Part shown: in pieces, positions 1,269 through 30,947 of the stretch
Layout: each line of letters opens with the position of its first letter
Numbering within the stretch: position 1 is the first letter of the stretch
DNA from: a virus
DNA: 34,256 bases
Direction: 5' to 3' (one strand)
Virus record (IMG/VR): IMGVR_UViG_3300024520_000280
Span: 1-34,256 of that record
Position numbers and translations under genes: made by a program
The notes under the pieces: model-generated
The model's database searches: none
Told to the model about the DNA's origin: nothing
What the model saw: the letters and a program-made list of their open reading frames with translations, nothing else

Positions 1269-1580
1269 TTAGTTTACGTTATATAAATCATACTTACAAG
1301 TAAGCTCTTCACCTGCCTTGATATCTTCTTTAGAATACAATTCTTTAAACCAACCCTTATTAATAGAATAGCAATTAGGTGTGTCACTATGATTATAAAA
1401 CCCTCCTAATGGAAGTCTTACCCAATCTTCTTGTGTTCTATTACCTGATATATGTAAGTGAGTATATCCTATCCATTTATCTTTGGGAATATCTGCAGTA
1501 GCAAATAAACCTAAACCTTCAATAGAAGATTCTTTTATTGTTAAGTACTCCGGTAGTGGTTTATAATTAGTTTTAGTCAT
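1269..1580 (-). CDS. Minimal SET-domain protein (putative protein-lysine methyltransferase)
   Basis: 103 residues carrying the core SET signatures: EGLGLFA at about 21-27 (SAM-binding GxG turn), YNHSDTPNC at about 62-70 (the NHSxxPN motif that forms the cofactor pocket and pseudoknot) and GEELTCKYD at about 90-98 (the GEELTxxY motif with the catalytic-region Tyr). SET enzymes transfer methyl groups from S-adenosylmethionine to lysine side chains. No pre-SET Cys cluster and only one residue after YDLYNV exist, so this is a bare catalytic core at the short end of the family. It lies in the small-gene block. The substrate is unknown and could be a host or a phage protein. Confidence 0.85.
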   Translation of the reverse strand: MTKTNYKPLPEYLTIKESSIEGLGLFATADIPKDKWIGYTHLHISGNRTQEDWVRLPLGGFYNHSDTPNCYSINKGWFKELYSKEDIKAGEELTCKYDLYNVN

Positions 1581-14452: not shown

Positions 14453-15396
14453 GTATTAGGAATTAATGTTTTTAAAATCATTTTTGTAGCATCTTTTCCA
14501 AAATCTTTTATTGAATCAGCTACATCTTTAGCTAAGTTTAAGTATAAACCCTGAATACCATAGTTATTTTTATATTTTTCCATGGCCTTATGACCAGCTT
14601 CATCATTATCAAATAATGTATATAAATTATCATACTTAAGCATATATTCAGCTAAGTTAGATCTAGGTATCATTGTATTTTCACTATTTGGAGCTACAAA
14701 TTCTATATTCAAGTTTAATTCCATTAATGCTAAACCATCTTTCATTGATGAGCATAAAATAAGAGTATCTGATTTATAAGTTAATTGATCACTACCTTGT
14801 ATAAAACCTTTTACATTTATAAACTTTAAAGATTTAGCTTTAGGTCTATAAACTTTTGATAAGTCACCATTTGCTTTAAAATAACCATACATATATTGAC
14901 CTTTAAGTTTAGATTCAATTATATTACCATCTACATTTTTAGACATTATTACTAAATCAAGCGGGAATATATTGTATTCTTCTAAAGATTTAGAACTTAC
15001 ACCAAACTGTGTCCAGTATTTCTGATCAAGTACATTCCATTTTCTTTTAATATGAGATGTTACTTTAAACTTTGATTCTTGTTTTAATATAGTCTGTTCA
15101 TATGGAGCCTGGTTTACTTTACTAAAATCAGTTGTAAGCTTATCTACAGCTTCTGAGTAATCTAATTGAAATAACCTTTGTACAAGCTGTGTTGAGTCAC
15201 CAGCATATCCTGTTGAAAAATCTTTAAAAAGATATTCATCATTTTTATAATAAATGCACATTGATGGTGTTCTTTCTGTTGGTTTAAATAAAGACTTGAT
15301 TTTTAAATCTTGACCATGTAATTTTTCATTTAAATTACAATAATGTTCAAAAACCCAAGTATTAGGTATTTTATTAGTGTTTATTATTCTTATCAT
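14449..15396 (-). CDS. DnaG-type primase with Toprim domain, zinc finger lost
   Basis: 315 residues. The N-terminal part keeps the shape of a CHC2 primase domain (FKPTERTPSMCIYYKNDEYLFKDF, then GYAGDSTQLVQRL) but not its Cys/His ligand set. The Toprim domain is seen in TLILCSSMKDGLALMEL and the DxD motif LFDNDEAG. Where canonical Toprim proteins have a catalytic Glu (xEGxxD), this one reads SSMKDG, an oddity shared in my memory with some phage primases. It would make RNA primers for the family B polymerase, working with the DnaB-type helicase encoded upstream. Confidence 0.85.
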   Translation of the reverse strand: MIRIINTNKIPNTWVFEHYCNLNEKLHGQDLKIKSLFKPTERTPSMCIYYKNDEYLFKDFSTGYAGDSTQLVQRLFQLDYSEAVDKLTTDFSKVNQAPYEQTILKQESKFKVTSHIKRKWNVLDQKYWTQFGVSSKSLEEYNIFPLDLVIMSKNVDGNIIESKLKGQYMYGYFKANGDLSKVYRPKAKSLKFINVKGFIQGSDQLTYKSDTLILCSSMKDGLALMELNLNIEFVAPNSENTMIPRSNLAEYMLKYDNLYTLFDNDEAGHKAMEKYKNNYGIQGLYLNLAKDVADSIKDFGKDATKMILKTLIPNT

Positions 15397-15410
15397 AACT
15401 GAGGTATTAA

Positions 15411-15439
15411 AAAGGGAGAGCTTTATAAACCCTCCCTTT
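15411..15439 (-). terminator. Rho-independent terminator after the SSB-like gene
   Basis: An 8-bp perfect stem (AAAGGGAG 15411-15418 with CTCCCTTT 15432-15439) followed by TT on the minus strand, 5 bases past the SSB-like stop. It lies 15 bases ahead of the primase start, so it probably lowers primase relative to SSB. Confidence 0.82.
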
Positions 15440-15444
15440 AATTA

Positions 15445-16125
15445 TTAATCTAAATCAAATTCATCAACAACTGCTGGTTTGTCTTCTGGAGCAAACCCAT
15501 CAACTGTTTTTGGCTTAAATTTAATAATATGTTCAGTATCTGAAAATGTTGATATTCTTGATTTAGCTACATCTGTTGTTATAGCTTCATAAGGAATACC
15601 CATTTTAGAGAATTTAGGAAAGAATAAATCATAGTTAGTATAACCATCTTTATTTTGATATTCTTTACCACCAATACAAGCTCTCATGAATTTATTTGCA
15701 TAAGGTTTATCTGTATTTAGTTTATCTACTAAAGACTCAATTGTTTCATGTTTATTATCTTGTTCAGATAACCAATCAGCACAATCAGTTGCATCACAAA
15801 GATATTTTAGATTTTTAAGGATTTCAAGATCTCTACTAAATGAAATATCATTAATAGTTTTATCTTCAAAAGTCCATCTACTTGCTCTTATTCTTCCAAC
15901 TTGTCCTGCATATTTACCTGCTTCAGGATTATCCCTATCTACATTAAAACCTTCAAAACTTTCACCTAAATCAGGTCCTTCACAATCATACATTAAATTG
16001 TATGCTTCTTCTGACCACGGTACTCTATCTAAGTATACTCTGTTAATTTTAACTTCTGTATTTCCTGGTTCTAAAACTTTAGAAATTTTATCTCCTCCTG
16101 CTTGAATGTTTTTTGTACTAATCAT
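15445..16125 (-). CDS. Single-stranded DNA-binding-like protein
   Basis: 226 residues from the MISTKNIQAGG start. An upstream in-frame ATG (16161) would add an MSMNNKNKKRRK leader that looks like translated A-rich 5' untranslated sequence, so I prefer 16125. The features are a beta-rich body (VKINRVYLDRVP, GQVGRIRASRWTFEDK), an aromatic FFPKFSKMG near the end, and an acidic hydrophobic tail ending DEFDLD, the hallmark of SSB proteins that recruit partners. It is located between the Sak4-like ATPase and primase genes, with its own terminator, as expected for an abundant SSB. Sequence alone does not prove the OB fold. Confidence 0.75.
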   Translation of the reverse strand: MISTKNIQAGGDKISKVLEPGNTEVKINRVYLDRVPWSEEAYNLMYDCEGPDLGESFEGFNVDRDNPEAGKYAGQVGRIRASRWTFEDKTINDISFSRDLEILKNLKYLCDATDCADWLSEQDNKHETIESLVDKLNTDKPYANKFMRACIGGKEYQNKDGYTNYDLFFPKFSKMGIPYEAITTDVAKSRISTFSDTEHIIKFKPKTVDGFAPEDKPAVVDEFDLD

Positions 16126-20960: not shown

Positions 20961-21446
20961 TTATATGTATATTAATTTTATTTTTTCTTTTAATGCTTTG
21001 TATTCTATTTTATAAGCTTTGTCTAATTCAATATATCCAGACATTGTTTTTATAGCATAAATTATACTAGCATGATTATGATTAAAATATCTTCCTATAT
21101 CTGAATCGGATAAAGATAGTTCTTCTCTCATAAAATACATAGAAAAATATTTAGGTTTTATAACATTAGGTTTTCTACTATCTGATAAAGCCTTTTCTAC
21201 AGGTATATCAAAATGATTAAAACAAATTTCTACTATTTTATGACATAAATTGCTTGTACTTAATTCTTTTTGCATACTAGCTATTTTAGCTTCTCTTACA
21301 GTTTCTGCTATATCTATTTTAATATCAGAATCAATATTTAAATGTAAAATACCTTCTAAACTACCTATTAAAGAACCATTTAGTTTACTTAGCTTCAGAA
21401 TCTCTTTTGAGAGTTGCAGTTCGTATGGTGAGAGTTTTCTGTTCAT
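20961..21446 (-). CDS. DnaA domain IV-like (HTH) DNA-binding protein 1
   Basis: 161 residues. The C-terminal region carries IGRYFNHNHASIIYAIKTM (117-135), matching the DnaA C-terminal signature (IGxxFxxxHxTVxxAxxxI) that contacts DnaA boxes. SxDSRKPNVIKPKYFSMYFMRE before it matches the helix and R-rich entrance of that domain. There is no AAA ATPase, so it binds DNA but cannot load helicase as DnaA does. Phage origin recognition or transcription control are candidates. A second protein of this type lies at 22628. The first 60 bases overlap the upstream HTH gene. Confidence 0.82.
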   Translation of the reverse strand: MNRKLSPYELQLSKEILKLSKLNGSLIGSLEGILHLNIDSDIKIDIAETVREAKIASMQKELSTSNLCHKIVEICFNHFDIPVEKALSDSRKPNVIKPKYFSMYFMREELSLSDSDIGRYFNHNHASIIYAIKTMSGYIELDKAYKIEYKALKEKIKLIYI

Positions 21447-22249: not shown

Positions 22250-22631
22250 TATTAACTGTATCTCCTATTTCAATACATGCTTGTATAGCTAAATTAATTT
22301 CTTCTATTGAACATGTACCAAATGATTTCCAATCTTGATATTCTTTATCATCTATAGTTACAGATAAATATAAACCTGCTCTATCTTTAACTGCAAGTTT
22401 CATTTCTTCAAATGTATATCCTATTTCATTAGCTAATACACGAATGCATTTATGAACTTTAGCTAATTGAGCTAAACTTTTACTTGCATCTGTAAGTTCC
22501 ATGAATACATTTACAACTTTACCTTCTGGTATTCCTTTTACAAATTCTTTAAATCTTTTTTCTTCTTCAGATTTAGTATAAATTAATTTACCATCTACCT
22601 TTTTAAAATAACTTGTGAATATATCTGTCAT
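22236..22631 (-). CDS. Conserved hypothetical, possibly NinB-like
   Basis: 131 residues. EGKVVNVFMELTDASKSLAQLAKVHKCIRVLANEIGYTFEEMKLAVKDRAGL (about 35-86) and SFGTCSIEEINLAIQACIEIGDT recall the architecture of NinB-type phage recombination proteins (KSxxQ...IxxxIG, then ST/CSxEE and a final helix), but the match is by eye. NinB helps RecA-family strand exchange in lambda. It overlaps the downstream stop of the plus-strand gene and the upstream DnaA-domain gene by 4 bases. Confidence 0.75.
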   Translation of the reverse strand: MTDIFTSYFKKVDGKLIYTKSEEEKRFKEFVKGIPEGKVVNVFMELTDASKSLAQLAKVHKCIRVLANEIGYTFEEMKLAVKDRAGLYLSVTIDDKEYQDWKSFGTCSIEEINLAIQACIEIGDTVNTNLR

Positions 22632-22978
22632 CTTTCTATTTTTCTTTTATTTATGTTAGCATTTAAAATATCAATTTTATGTTTAATTGTAGTATTTTGT
22701 TCACCAAGTATTTTTGCCATATTAACATTATGTATTACTGTTGCATGGTGTCTATTAATACTTTTACCAATTACATCTAAAGTATAATATAATTTTTTTC
22801 TAGTTATATAACAATATGCAAATCTTGCTTCTGTTATATATCTTTTTCTACTTTTTGACATAAGTTCTTCCGCTGTTACATTAAATATTTGTGTTACGGC
22901 TTTCATAGCAGTTTTTGTATCATAAATATTATATGTTAATCCTGGGTAAATCCAGTAATTAATATTGTGTTTTTCCAT
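22628..22978 (-). CDS. DnaA domain IV-like (HTH) DNA-binding protein 2
   Basis: 116 residues from MEKHNINYW (an earlier in-frame ATG at 23005 lies inside the upstream gene). SRKRYITEARFAYCYITRKKLYYTL then IGKSINRHHATVIHNVNMA (70-88) gives the DnaA C-terminal domain signature, including the R+xxARxxAxYLxR entry helix and HHATVIHN recognition loop. It is closer to bacterial DnaA than the protein at 20961. No ATPase domain. It may bind origin-like boxes in phage or host DNA, or compete with host DnaA (inference). Confidence 0.85.
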   Translation of the reverse strand: MEKHNINYWIYPGLTYNIYDTKTAMKAVTQIFNVTAEELMSKSRKRYITEARFAYCYITRKKLYYTLDVIGKSINRHHATVIHNVNMAKILGEQNTTIKHKIDILNANINKRKIER

Positions 22979-22983
22979 AAGTT

Positions 22984-23151
22984 TTATTTTAAATGTCTTA
23001 AACAAATTATTGCAGACTCAATAAGACTGACTATTTCACGAATATCATCACAAAGTATTGAGTAAGCTTGCTCCTCTTGTTCTTTAATATAATACTCATA
23101 CTCTGCAATTCTATCTTCATGACTTTTATGTTCTTCATATTCTCTATTCAT
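22984..23151 (-). CDS. Small acidic helical protein (55 aa)
   Basis: MNREYEEHKSHEDRIAEYEYYIKEQEEQ... is a continuous charged helix, probably coiled coil, followed by ILCDDIREIVSLIESAIICLRHLK. The start lies 3 bases below the SF2 helicase stop and the stop is 5 bases before the next start. It bridges an otherwise empty 150-base gap with good spacing on both sides, which is the main support. Function unknown. Confidence 0.65.
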   Translation of the reverse strand: MNREYEEHKSHEDRIAEYEYYIKEQEEQAYSILCDDIREIVSLIESAIICLRHLK

Positions 23152-27491: not shown

Positions 27492-28364
27492 TTAAAAAGG
27501 TAAATCTTGATAATTTTTAATATTATCACCTTTATTCCATAAATTTGATATTTCTATAAGTAATTTATATTTTTTATTACAAGATTTTATAAATTCTTCA
27601 TTAGCTATTTTATAAACTGAATTGAATAAATTACCTTGAGATGATTTATGTGTTTTCAATATAAAATTAGACCAATCACATTTTAAATTTAAAGCTTCAA
27701 TTTTTTCTAAAAAAAGAATATCAATTTTAGGATCAAACTTAAATGCTTCATCATTAATAATATTTATTATAAAATCATTTGGATAAAGAGCTGTTCTTAA
27801 TAACATATTACCTTGATATTTATTATATCTTTTATAATATGTAATTAAATCTTTTGCTCTATCTATAGAAATTTTATAACCTCTTAATGAATATTTAATA
27901 TAATACTTATAAAATTCAATAGGTGTAGTAATTTTACTACAAGCTATCATAGAAAATGTACCTTTTGTAAACATTTGAGAGTCAATATAAGGTTTTATAT
28001 TTTTTTTATAATTTGAGATACAATCTAAATGAAAAAGTAAATATTCATAAATAATAGAATCAAAATTATTAGAATTTTTTCCATAACTTTTCCAAAAGGT
28101 TAGTCTTGATGAACTTCTACCTTTTTTTTTAAAAGTTAACCCTGTATTAATTTGTTTATTTTTAAATGCACCATTAGAGCCCATTCTAAGGCAATAAGTT
28201 ACATCAACTATACATATTTTGTCATCATCTTCATATTTAGTTATTTCATTATAACTATGATCACCATTTCTATAATTTAATTTTTGATAAGCTAAAGGTG
28301 CTCTTAAATAATCTATAACTTCTTTTTTATTTGAGCTTTCAAATAAAATTGTATTAATTCCCAT
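27492..28364 (-). CDS. Hypothetical protein (290 aa), AT-rich
   Basis: 290 residues, very rich in Lys, Asn, Ile and Tyr. N-terminal FESSNKKEVIDYLRAPLAYQKLNYRNGDHSYNEIT, then IVDVTYCLRMGSNGAF and RSSSRLTFWKSYGKN, a middle of helical Tyr-rich residues (EFYKYYIKYSLRGYKISIDRAKD) and a C-terminal IEISNLWNKGDNI. Neither enzyme motifs nor membrane segments are evident. It starts 20 bases after the tmRNA terminator and ends above a strong terminator. Its base composition is more AT-rich than the replication genes, which may indicate a newer acquisition. No family recognised. Confidence 0.75.
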   Translation of the reverse strand: MGINTILFESSNKKEVIDYLRAPLAYQKLNYRNGDHSYNEITKYEDDDKICIVDVTYCLRMGSNGAFKNKQINTGLTFKKKGRSSSRLTFWKSYGKNSNNFDSIIYEYLLFHLDCISNYKKNIKPYIDSQMFTKGTFSMIACSKITTPIEFYKYYIKYSLRGYKISIDRAKDLITYYKRYNKYQGNMLLRTALYPNDFIINIINDEAFKFDPKIDILFLEKIEALNLKCDWSNFILKTHKSSQGNLFNSVYKIANEEFIKSCNKKYKLLIEISNLWNKGDNIKNYQDLPF

Positions 28365-28384
28365 ATAAAAGTTTTTTTAATGAA

Positions 28385-28415
28385 AAAGCCCAGGTACTAT
28401 ACTTCACTGGGCTTT
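28385..28415 (-). terminator. Terminator at the 3' end of the tmRNA coding piece
   Basis: AAAGCCCAG and CTGGGCTTT (28407-28415 and 28385-28393) form a perfect 9-bp stem around a 13-nt loop, followed by TT and a T-rich stretch on the minus strand. It begins 8 bases past the tag stop codons. Confidence 0.88.
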
Positions 28416-28660
28416 AACTGTTACTATGCGGCAATAGCCATACGGCTACCTGGCTTAATAACGAACATTGGTATAACTTTGTCAGTTATATATAATTATC
28501 ACACAATACTCCAGCTACTATTCATGCCTGTCAAATCCAAGTCAGCCCCATAATAATCCCCTAGAGTTTGCAAAAGCCTTATCTAGGTCTCATTGGAAAT
28601 GAGTGGTGGAGCTGCAGGGGTTCGAACCCTGGTGCAAACAAGTCTTCATTGGTGCGTGAG
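28387..28660 (-). ncRNA. ssrA: Circularly permuted (two-piece) tmRNA
   Basis: tmRNA rescues stalled ribosomes by acting as tRNA-Ala and as mRNA for a degradation tag. On the minus strand the acceptor half comes first: T-stem CAGGG (28631-28627), loop TTCGAAC, CCCTG, acceptor strand CAGCTCC (28614-28608), A, CCA (28606-28604). After 54 nt the coding half begins at 28549 with GGGGCTG, pairing perfectly with CAGCTCC and giving the G3-U70 alanine identity pair, then the D-loop ACTTGGATTTGACA. ATTGTGTGA (28507-28499) can pair with TCACG/CAAT (28659-28648). Hairpin TATAACT/AGTTATA precedes a tag frame ending PGSRMAIAA, then TAG TAA (28426-28421). This order requires processing into two RNAs. Ends are approximate; the tag start is uncertain. 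Confidence 0.88.
28550..28603 (-). other. Intervening segment of the permuted tmRNA precursor
   Basis: Joins the CCA end to the mature 5' end, as in permuted tmRNA precursors. It folds on its own: CTCATT/AATGAG directly after CCA, then CCTAGA/TCTAGG, so the precursor presents the acceptor stem closed by hairpins. Expected to be excised by tRNA-processing nucleases such as RNase P at 28549. Confidence 0.75.
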
Positions 28661-28666
28661 AACATG

Positions 28667-28698
28667 CAAATTTATGATTAAGAAGTTAATTATGCAAA
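28667..28698 (-). promoter_or_regulatory. Bacteroidota-type promoter of the tmRNA
   Basis: On the minus strand TTTG (28698-28695), exactly 20 bases, then TAAATTTG (28674-28667): full match to the Bacteroidota -33/-7 consensus. Transcription would start near 28660, just where the acceptor piece pairing begins. The TTTG overlaps the base after the upstream stop. Confidence 0.8.
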
Positions 28699-30454: not shown

Positions 30455-30598
30455 TTAAGTTAATTCTTCTTCTTCAGAATTATTTATGTAAATACCTTCA
30501 ATTTGTTCACCTAATTCATCAAAAATTTCAACTTCCAATAAACCGTTTTCTTGGTAATTAATTGTAATTAGATATTCACCTAAATTAATTTCTTGCAT
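30455..30598 (-). CDS. Small acidic conserved protein (47 aa)
   Basis: MQEINLGEYLITINYQENGLLEVEIFDELG... is an alternating beta pattern, ending with an acidic tail (NNSEEEELT). It overlaps the glucosaminidase stop by 14 bases. The pattern seems familiar from small phage proteins, with no known role. Confidence 0.65.
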   Translation of the reverse strand: MQEINLGEYLITINYQENGLLEVEIFDELGEQIEGIYINNSEEEELT

Positions 30599-30947
30599 AG
30601 TTTAATATTTTTAATTTATTAATATAATCTGGGTCTTTAGCATATCCTAATTCATCTAAGAATGTGTAATAGTCTCCACTTTTGTATTTATATTGTATTT
30701 TAGACATATATGCATCACAAGATTCTTTCCAATTGTCAAATATAAGATATTTATGGTCATATCTAAGTCCAAATAAATTATGTCTTTTTCTACAGCTATA
30801 AGATTTAAAGTGTCCTGTTTCTAATATAGCTTGAGCTGTTACTATTTCTGGATACTTGCAATTTATAGATACTAAATAATTATAAACTGTTTCCTTATTA
30901 GGTGGTTCAGAGCATATAAATAGTATTATTAAATAAATAATTTTCAT
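30585..30947 (-). CDS. Glucosaminidase-domain peptidoglycan hydrolase
   Basis: 120 residues. A short hydrophobic N-terminus (MKIIYLIILFICS) acts as a signal or lipoprotein-type signal (Cys 12). The domain shows AQAILETGHFKSYSCRKRHNLFGLR (38-62), the glycoside hydrolase 73-type signature with catalytic Glu 43, followed by FDNWKESCDAY and a C-terminal YAKDPDYINKLKIL. It would cleave the glycan strand of peptidoglycan, either during lysis or with virions. It is remote from the plus-strand lysis cassette, which lacks a recognisable lysin, so it could be the endolysin. Confidence 0.82.
   Translation of the reverse strand: MKIIYLIILFICSEPPNKETVYNYLVSINCKYPEIVTAQAILETGHFKSYSCRKRHNLFGLRYDHKYLIFDNWKESCDAYMSKIQYKYKSGDYYTFLDELGYAKDPDYINKLKILNYARN

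Follow-up and report, generated by a model that had tools for sequence, protein, structure and literature searches.

A circularly permuted tmRNA gene in phages of Bacteroidota, probably permuted independently of the known two-piece lineages

A locus at about 28383-28661 on the minus strand of a viral DNA (IMG/VR record IMGVR_UViG_3300024520_000280; the whole stretch of 34,256 nt is called the window here) raises the question of whether a phage of Bacteroidota carries a working two-piece tmRNA and, if so, where its permutation came from. ARAGORN and Rfam both place a permuted tmRNA gene at this site. Run in permuted mode, as the earlier note on this DNA had proposed, ARAGORN called a permuted tmRNA at 28333-28696 with the tag DKVIPMFVIKPGSRMAIAA followed by two stops. 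The tmRNA_permuted model of Rfam release 15 (RF04321, cut-off 47 bits), which merges RF01849, RF01850 and RF01851, matched at 28424-28664 with 57.3 bits (E = 8.7e-9) over its full length, model positions 1-213 of 213. The search with Rfam permuted models, also proposed earlier, thus succeeded with the merged model and failed with the separate alpha, beta and cyano models, which stayed below their cut-offs. RF00023, the model of the standard one-piece tmRNA (47 bits), had no match above its cut-off in the window, and dinucleotide shuffles of the window gave 0 ARAGORN tmRNA calls in 200. With the shuffles empty and the gene conserved in 16 other distinct loci, the window gene is confirmed as a circularly permuted tmRNA above chance.

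The anatomy of the gene agrees with what had been described from the letters alone: on the minus strand, an acceptor half with its T-arm and a CCA end lies 54 nt ahead of the half that begins GGGGCTG. Directly upstream is a candidate Bacteroidota-type promoter, TTTG-N20-TAAATTTG, at 28667-28698; the pattern searched, TTTGN{17,22}TANNTTTG, occurs 4 times in the window against 2.6 expected, which is weak by itself, and the argument for this copy is its position. The acceptor piece starts with the 3′ strand of P2 (28632-28661), which has UCACGCA at its far end and CUUGUUUG adjoining the T-arm and is complementary to 28494-28506 and to CAGGCA after the D-loop. There follow the T-arm CAGGG-UUCGAAC-CCCUG (28615-28631) and the acceptor 3′ strand CAGCUCC with discriminator A and an encoded CCA ending at 28604 (28604-28614). 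This strand pairs with 28543-28549, and all 7 of the 7 acceptor pairs reported earlier, G3-U70 among them, are present. The 54-nt intervening sequence, predicted to be excised, spans 28550-28603 and holds two hairpins, at 28589-28603 and 28560-28587. The coding piece opens with the acceptor 5′ strand GGGGCUG and the D-loop to UUUGAC (28530-28549), in which the conserved D-loop reads GGAUUUGAC. The distal part of the P2 5′ strand, where UGUGUGA pairs with UCACGCA, lies at 28494-28506 and is followed by a resume hairpin, UAUAAC-UGACAAA-GUUAUA, at 28472-28490, a motif conserved in the family, with the resume codon GAC in its loop. The tag frame called by ARAGORN, to which homologous tags exist in the family, runs over 28424-28483 and, as noted before, ends in MAIAA and then UAG, with UAA at 28421-28423. 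The terminator that had been reported is visible, by fold and coordinates, as a terminator-like hairpin, AAAGCCCAG...CUGGGCUUUUU, with a U run at 28383-28415; a simple terminator scan with a loop limit of 8 did not report it.

Counting the window, 17 distinct loci make up the family of this gene, the others being 15 phages and one prophage; L347 and L377 are near copies. Members come from contigs of IMG/VR, from isolated Maribacter and Chryseobacterium phages, from crAss-like phages and from a prophage of a Bacteroidota genome. When known phages were searched by BLASTN with the window gene, divergence was too high for any match, and an exact T-arm pattern, which was too strict, gave none in the viral contigs. 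A gapped pattern found the same arrangement in contig L088, where the tag AKVINLFTPQLRVAA aligns with DKVIPMF... of the window. The spacers of the two genes each form two hairpins with changed base pairs (stems CUCAUU/AAUGAG and CCAUU/AAUGG; CCUAGA/UCUAGG and CCAGAG/CUCUGG). Among 395 genomes of the Bacteroidota phylum searched with RF04321, only one match exceeded the cut-off, locus L181 in genome G286, with the tag GKVIQMNNAPVRLAA. Patterns made of shared features added L275, L276, L277, L297, L311, L342, L348, L355, L374 and L383, and BLASTN from these members reached Maribacter phage Panino, Chryseobacterium phage MA9V-3 and the crAss-like cr50_1 and cr53_1. The tmRNAs of Panino and MA9V-3 are of the same permuted family, with the tags GKVMNVSFAPTVRQFA and GNVIDINKYVAKLEVAA.

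Three candidates were rejected. L179, the only match in a pattern scan of the genome collection, is a chance gene end (ENFSTII and a stop) before a one-piece Bacteroidales ssrA, and L312 and L345 are chance matches to a palindromic hairpin with no tmRNA at the site. Among relatives of the window phage by polB, 0 of 50 had a permuted gene above the cut-off. Three of the 50 have a one-piece gene. The polB relatives L083, L084 and L085 carry the standard one-piece form with exceptionally long tags of 26 aa (for example GTSNVDRVAEGEAILASIFGEVAIAA), so that a single phage group contains the permuted and the one-piece gene alike. Another polB relative, L233 (IMGVR_UViG_3300008255_000115), has at 15360-15480 on the minus strand a T-arm and acceptor half, a 15-nt gap and a GGGGGTG half containing a D-arm-like stretch, with ACAGA and TCTGT as complementary flanks; RF04321 scores it at only 22 bits, and it may be a permuted tmRNA that has diverged or else a tRNA in circularly permuted form. 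Related or tmRNA-bearing phages also carry Rfam tRNA genes of 110-143 nt with long inserts (L082 1253-1395, L083 1910-2019 and L355 530-648), and in cr50_1 (L388) a strong RAGATH-22 RNA match of 155.6 bits at 854-1020 precedes the permuted tmRNA by about 0.45 kb.

The earlier note had made its interpretation conditional on a Bacteroidota host, and the sequence evidence supports this host for the window phage through its lysin, its missing Shine-Dalgarno sites and the homologues in Bacteroidota phages and a prophage. The lysin, a glucosaminidase at 30585-30947, matched 54 phage records; among the matches listed, the named hosts are all Bacteroides or Flavobacterium, and the remainder are uncultured or crAss-like. 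A Shine-Dalgarno-like tetramer stands upstream of 2 of 31 window genes (shuffled mean 0.98). Assignment through the DNA polymerase and the VWA protein of the window was dropped, since the nearest isolates are about 30% identical with mixed hosts and replication genes do not discriminate. An alphaproteobacterial phage of SAR11 type, suggested by the low G+C, was rejected on the grounds of the D-loop, the tag, the lysin and the lack of Shine-Dalgarno sites. Elsewhere in the window, a small protein at 1269-1580 (minus strand) matches the SET domain (PF00856, E = 2.3e-12), which is best known in eukaryotic lysine methyltransferases, and separate small proteins at 20961-21446 and 22628-23005 (minus strand) have the C-terminal DNA-binding domain of DnaA (PF08299) without the ATPase part.

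G286 falls in one phylum with a named Bacteroidales MAG. Its permuted gene, at 986035-986308 of a 1.6-Mb contig, is surrounded by phage genes (a UvrD-type helicase, DNA ligase, RIIA, RIIB and PolA, with relatives of the DnaB-like helicase, primase and exonuclease of the window), an integrase follows at 997091-998419 and ordinary metabolic genes lie beyond. Judged by this gene content, the permuted gene sits in an integrated prophage, and the genome also has smpB and a one-piece ssrA with the tag GEDNYALAA. Since ssrA is a common integration site, and a role of such kind was proposed in the Panino paper (PMC11590407), one might suppose that the permuted gene is an unexpressed piece of host ssrA taken up at the attachment site of a temperate phage. 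We regard this as very improbable. The gene is complete at both ends and has promoter-like and terminator-like signals; in G286 it lies about 11 kb from the integrase, with the host ssrA on another contig; and a one-piece tmRNA with a match above the cut-off was present in 59 of 61 Bacteroidota-phylum genomes, so that a permuted copy cannot derive from the site.

Both halves of the gene appear to be constrained across the family. All acceptor and T-stem pairs are kept across the 16 members compared, the T-stem with compensatory changes. Covariation is full at acceptor pairs 5 and 6 and in the T-stem; at pair 5 all four Watson-Crick types occur (C-G, G-C, A-U and U-A). The third pair is G-U in every one of the 16. 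Because the acceptor pairs connect the halves across the spacer, the two halves are under joint selection. For P2, the segments between D-loop and tag and before the T-arm fold better with their cognate partners (mean −15.7 kcal/mol) than when swapped between members (−12.2 kcal/mol; permutation p = 5e-5), a family-wide result; the cognate partner of the window by itself ranks 11 of 16 and is not individually significant. Most members have the hairpin AUAAC-UGnnAAA-GUUAU, in altered versions in MA9V-3 and the crAss-like members, and ARAGORN reads this stretch as the resume consensus. A resume hairpin with the resume codon in its loop accounts for the constancy of KV(I/M) in the tags, which are mostly of the form (A/D/G)KVI..., reach their stop in 13-19 codons and end in AA in 14 of 17 loci. 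The hairpin was found in none of 67 other permuted phage tmRNAs.

Where did the permutation come from? The earlier note had left two options, an independent permutation or a long-range transfer, and the D-loop and P2 signature and the tree of the tRNA-like domain favour the first with moderate statistical support. Of 16 family members 15 have the D-loop UUUGAC, as do 13 of the 57 Bacteroidota-phylum one-piece genes. Several members were found by patterns containing TTTGAC, and the first of these counts is therefore partly selected; among members found without it the count is 5 of 6. When the scan was repeated with the base left open, U stood there in 9 of 9 hairpin-bearing loci, and of the 67 other permuted phage genes, recovered with a pattern that likewise left that base open, none had the UUUGAC D-loop. 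In a tree built on 79 columns of the tRNA domain, 14 of 16 members split off together with 13 Bacteroidota one-piece genes and 3 Bacteroidota-type phage one-piece genes (support 96/92), and 12 of the 13 UUUGAC one-piece genes, including the own ssrA of G286, are in this group. The family itself was not recovered as one clade; L297 stands at the group edge, and the window is a long branch among the other permuted genes (91/89, unstarred). In a further sample of 396 genomes from the order of G286, a permuted gene was found only in G286; scoring of the large genome samples used stricter filters and was limited to five candidates per genome, so that absence in them is not absolute.

The placement of the window bears on the second option, in which a functional two-piece tmRNA was acquired horizontally from a permuted gene of Proteobacteria or Cyanobacteria, or of their phages, and later drifted to the Bacteroidota signature. 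Permuted tmRNAs are common among other aquatic phages (PMC9004378), the free tree puts the tRNA-like domain of the window with other permuted genes, and the beta model is the top-scoring clade-specific model for most members, though below its cut-off. The window scores 34.9 bits with it and the relatives tested 30-47 bits, all below the cut-offs (alpha_tmRNA RF01849, 50 bits; beta_tmRNA RF01850, 84 bits; cyano_tmRNA RF01851, 70 bits), and the control phage genes L105, L144 and L135 pass clade-specific models at 101-141 bits. We nevertheless consider such a transfer unlikely: Bacteroidota one-piece genes share the UUUGAC D-loop and the GUUUGGAC ahead of the T-arm, most members group with those genes in the tree, and the resume hairpin is missing from the other permuted genes. 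Forcing all permuted genes together was borderline rejected in the AU test (p = 0.0496), and forcing the family together with these Bacteroidota genes, window included, was not (p = 0.17). We suggest that the family is probably a fourth, phage-borne lineage of two-piece tmRNA, with an independent permutation that arose inside Bacteroidota phages from a Bacteroidota-type gene. That this fourth independent permutation has been kept as a mobile, phage-only gene with its own resume hairpin and tag, beside the one-piece tmRNA of the host, seems to us the likelier account, held with some reserve.

Two-piece tmRNA has been named for three main bacterial lineages (PMC9004378, PMC11915505). With the permuted genes of Alphaproteobacteria, Betaproteobacteria and Cyanobacteria the window family shares the order of acceptor half, spacer and coding half, a tRNA-like domain with G3-U70, an inter-piece P2, a tag frame with a stop and a passing score with RF04321. 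Unlike them, the window is below the clade-specific cut-offs, and its family has the UUUGAC D-loop, a resume codon in a 5-6-bp hairpin, a tag of the form xKVI... instead of the AND...ALAA type, and a phage-borne gene in hosts with one-piece genes. OM43 phage Melnitz and the pelagimyophages likewise carry a permuted ssrA on an aquatic phage (PMC9004378), but that of Melnitz is alphaproteobacterial by its tree and lies under a glutamine riboswitch (PMC9004378), whereas the window family has Bacteroidota signatures. One-piece ssrA genes of Bacteroidota hosts and phages (Cellulophaga phi38:1, Calle_1) have the same signature of the tRNA-like domain, UUUGACAG and CUUGUUUGGAC, but differ from the window family in their standard order, longer RNA and match to RF00023.

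Permuted tmRNAs of phages were known as such before. In a 2022 survey, 53 of the 133 unique tmRNA structures from phages were two-piece, and phage ssrA was linked to three lineages of hosts (PMC9004378). The earlier note omitted this precedent, and it also omitted that the window gene is a member of a family. Some members had been annotated plainly as tmRNA: those of Panino, MA9V-3 and cr50_1 are already labelled SsrA, and the Panino and MA9V-3 papers mention the tmRNA and are silent on its permutation (PMC11590407, PMC13120357). Of this Bacteroidota-phage lineage we found no report in the open-licence papers searched. A phage-borne lineage in a one-piece phylum suggests that mobile elements can give rise to the permutation or carry it along, and a phage-borne permuted gene would offer a host lineage a direct route to a permuted tmRNA. 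The Maribacter and Chryseobacterium phages are cultivable systems in which to ask why phages carry a trans-translation RNA and whether a phage tag gives proteins another fate than a host tag.

We conclude, with a probability of roughly 0.8, that the window gene is a working permuted ssrA of a Bacteroidota phage, in a family whose permutation was probably an event apart from those of Alphaproteobacteria, Betaproteobacteria and Cyanobacteria. The sequence itself supplies the order of the halves, the stems, the tag frame, the family and the host phylum; transcription, processing, charging, use of SmpB, tagging and a benefit to the phage are what we infer. Known two-piece tmRNAs are made as a single precursor that tRNA-processing enzymes cut into acceptor and coding RNAs (PMC9004378, PMC11915505), and by analogy the phage precursor would be cut into two RNAs in the same way. 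A single precursor would be transcribed from the candidate promoter at about 28667-28698, and host tRNA-processing enzymes would excise the 54-nt spacer, RNase P cutting at 28549 and 3′ processing occurring at the CCA at 28604. The products would be two RNAs, the acceptor piece about 57 nt long and the coding piece about 160 nt, joined through P2 and the acceptor stem. The RNA would be charged by host AlaRS via G3-U70 and brought by host SmpB to stalled ribosomes, where the tag DKVIPMFVIKPGSRMAIAA would be added, with release following at UAG. The most plausible benefit to the phage would be ribosomes recycled from broken mRNA during infection, with a tag unlike the GEDNYALAA type of the host.

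Among the 18 phage records, some of which are fragments, none has a recognisable SmpB, so that host SmpB must serve. The same result would suit an RNA that competes for SmpB and blocks host trans-translation rather than rescuing ribosomes, and a tag-less DS6A-type phage form with little beyond the tRNA-like domain is reported to inhibit tmRNA (PMC4131195, PMC11915505). A decoy of this kind has no need of a tag frame, yet the family conserves the frame together with its length, the AA at its C-terminus and the stop; selection on the tag frame favours true tagging, and we judge the decoy improbable. In addition to its tmRNA, Chryseobacterium phage MA9V-3 (L385) encodes a ClpX homologue (PMC13120357), a pairing that hints at a phage-controlled tag-and-degrade route.
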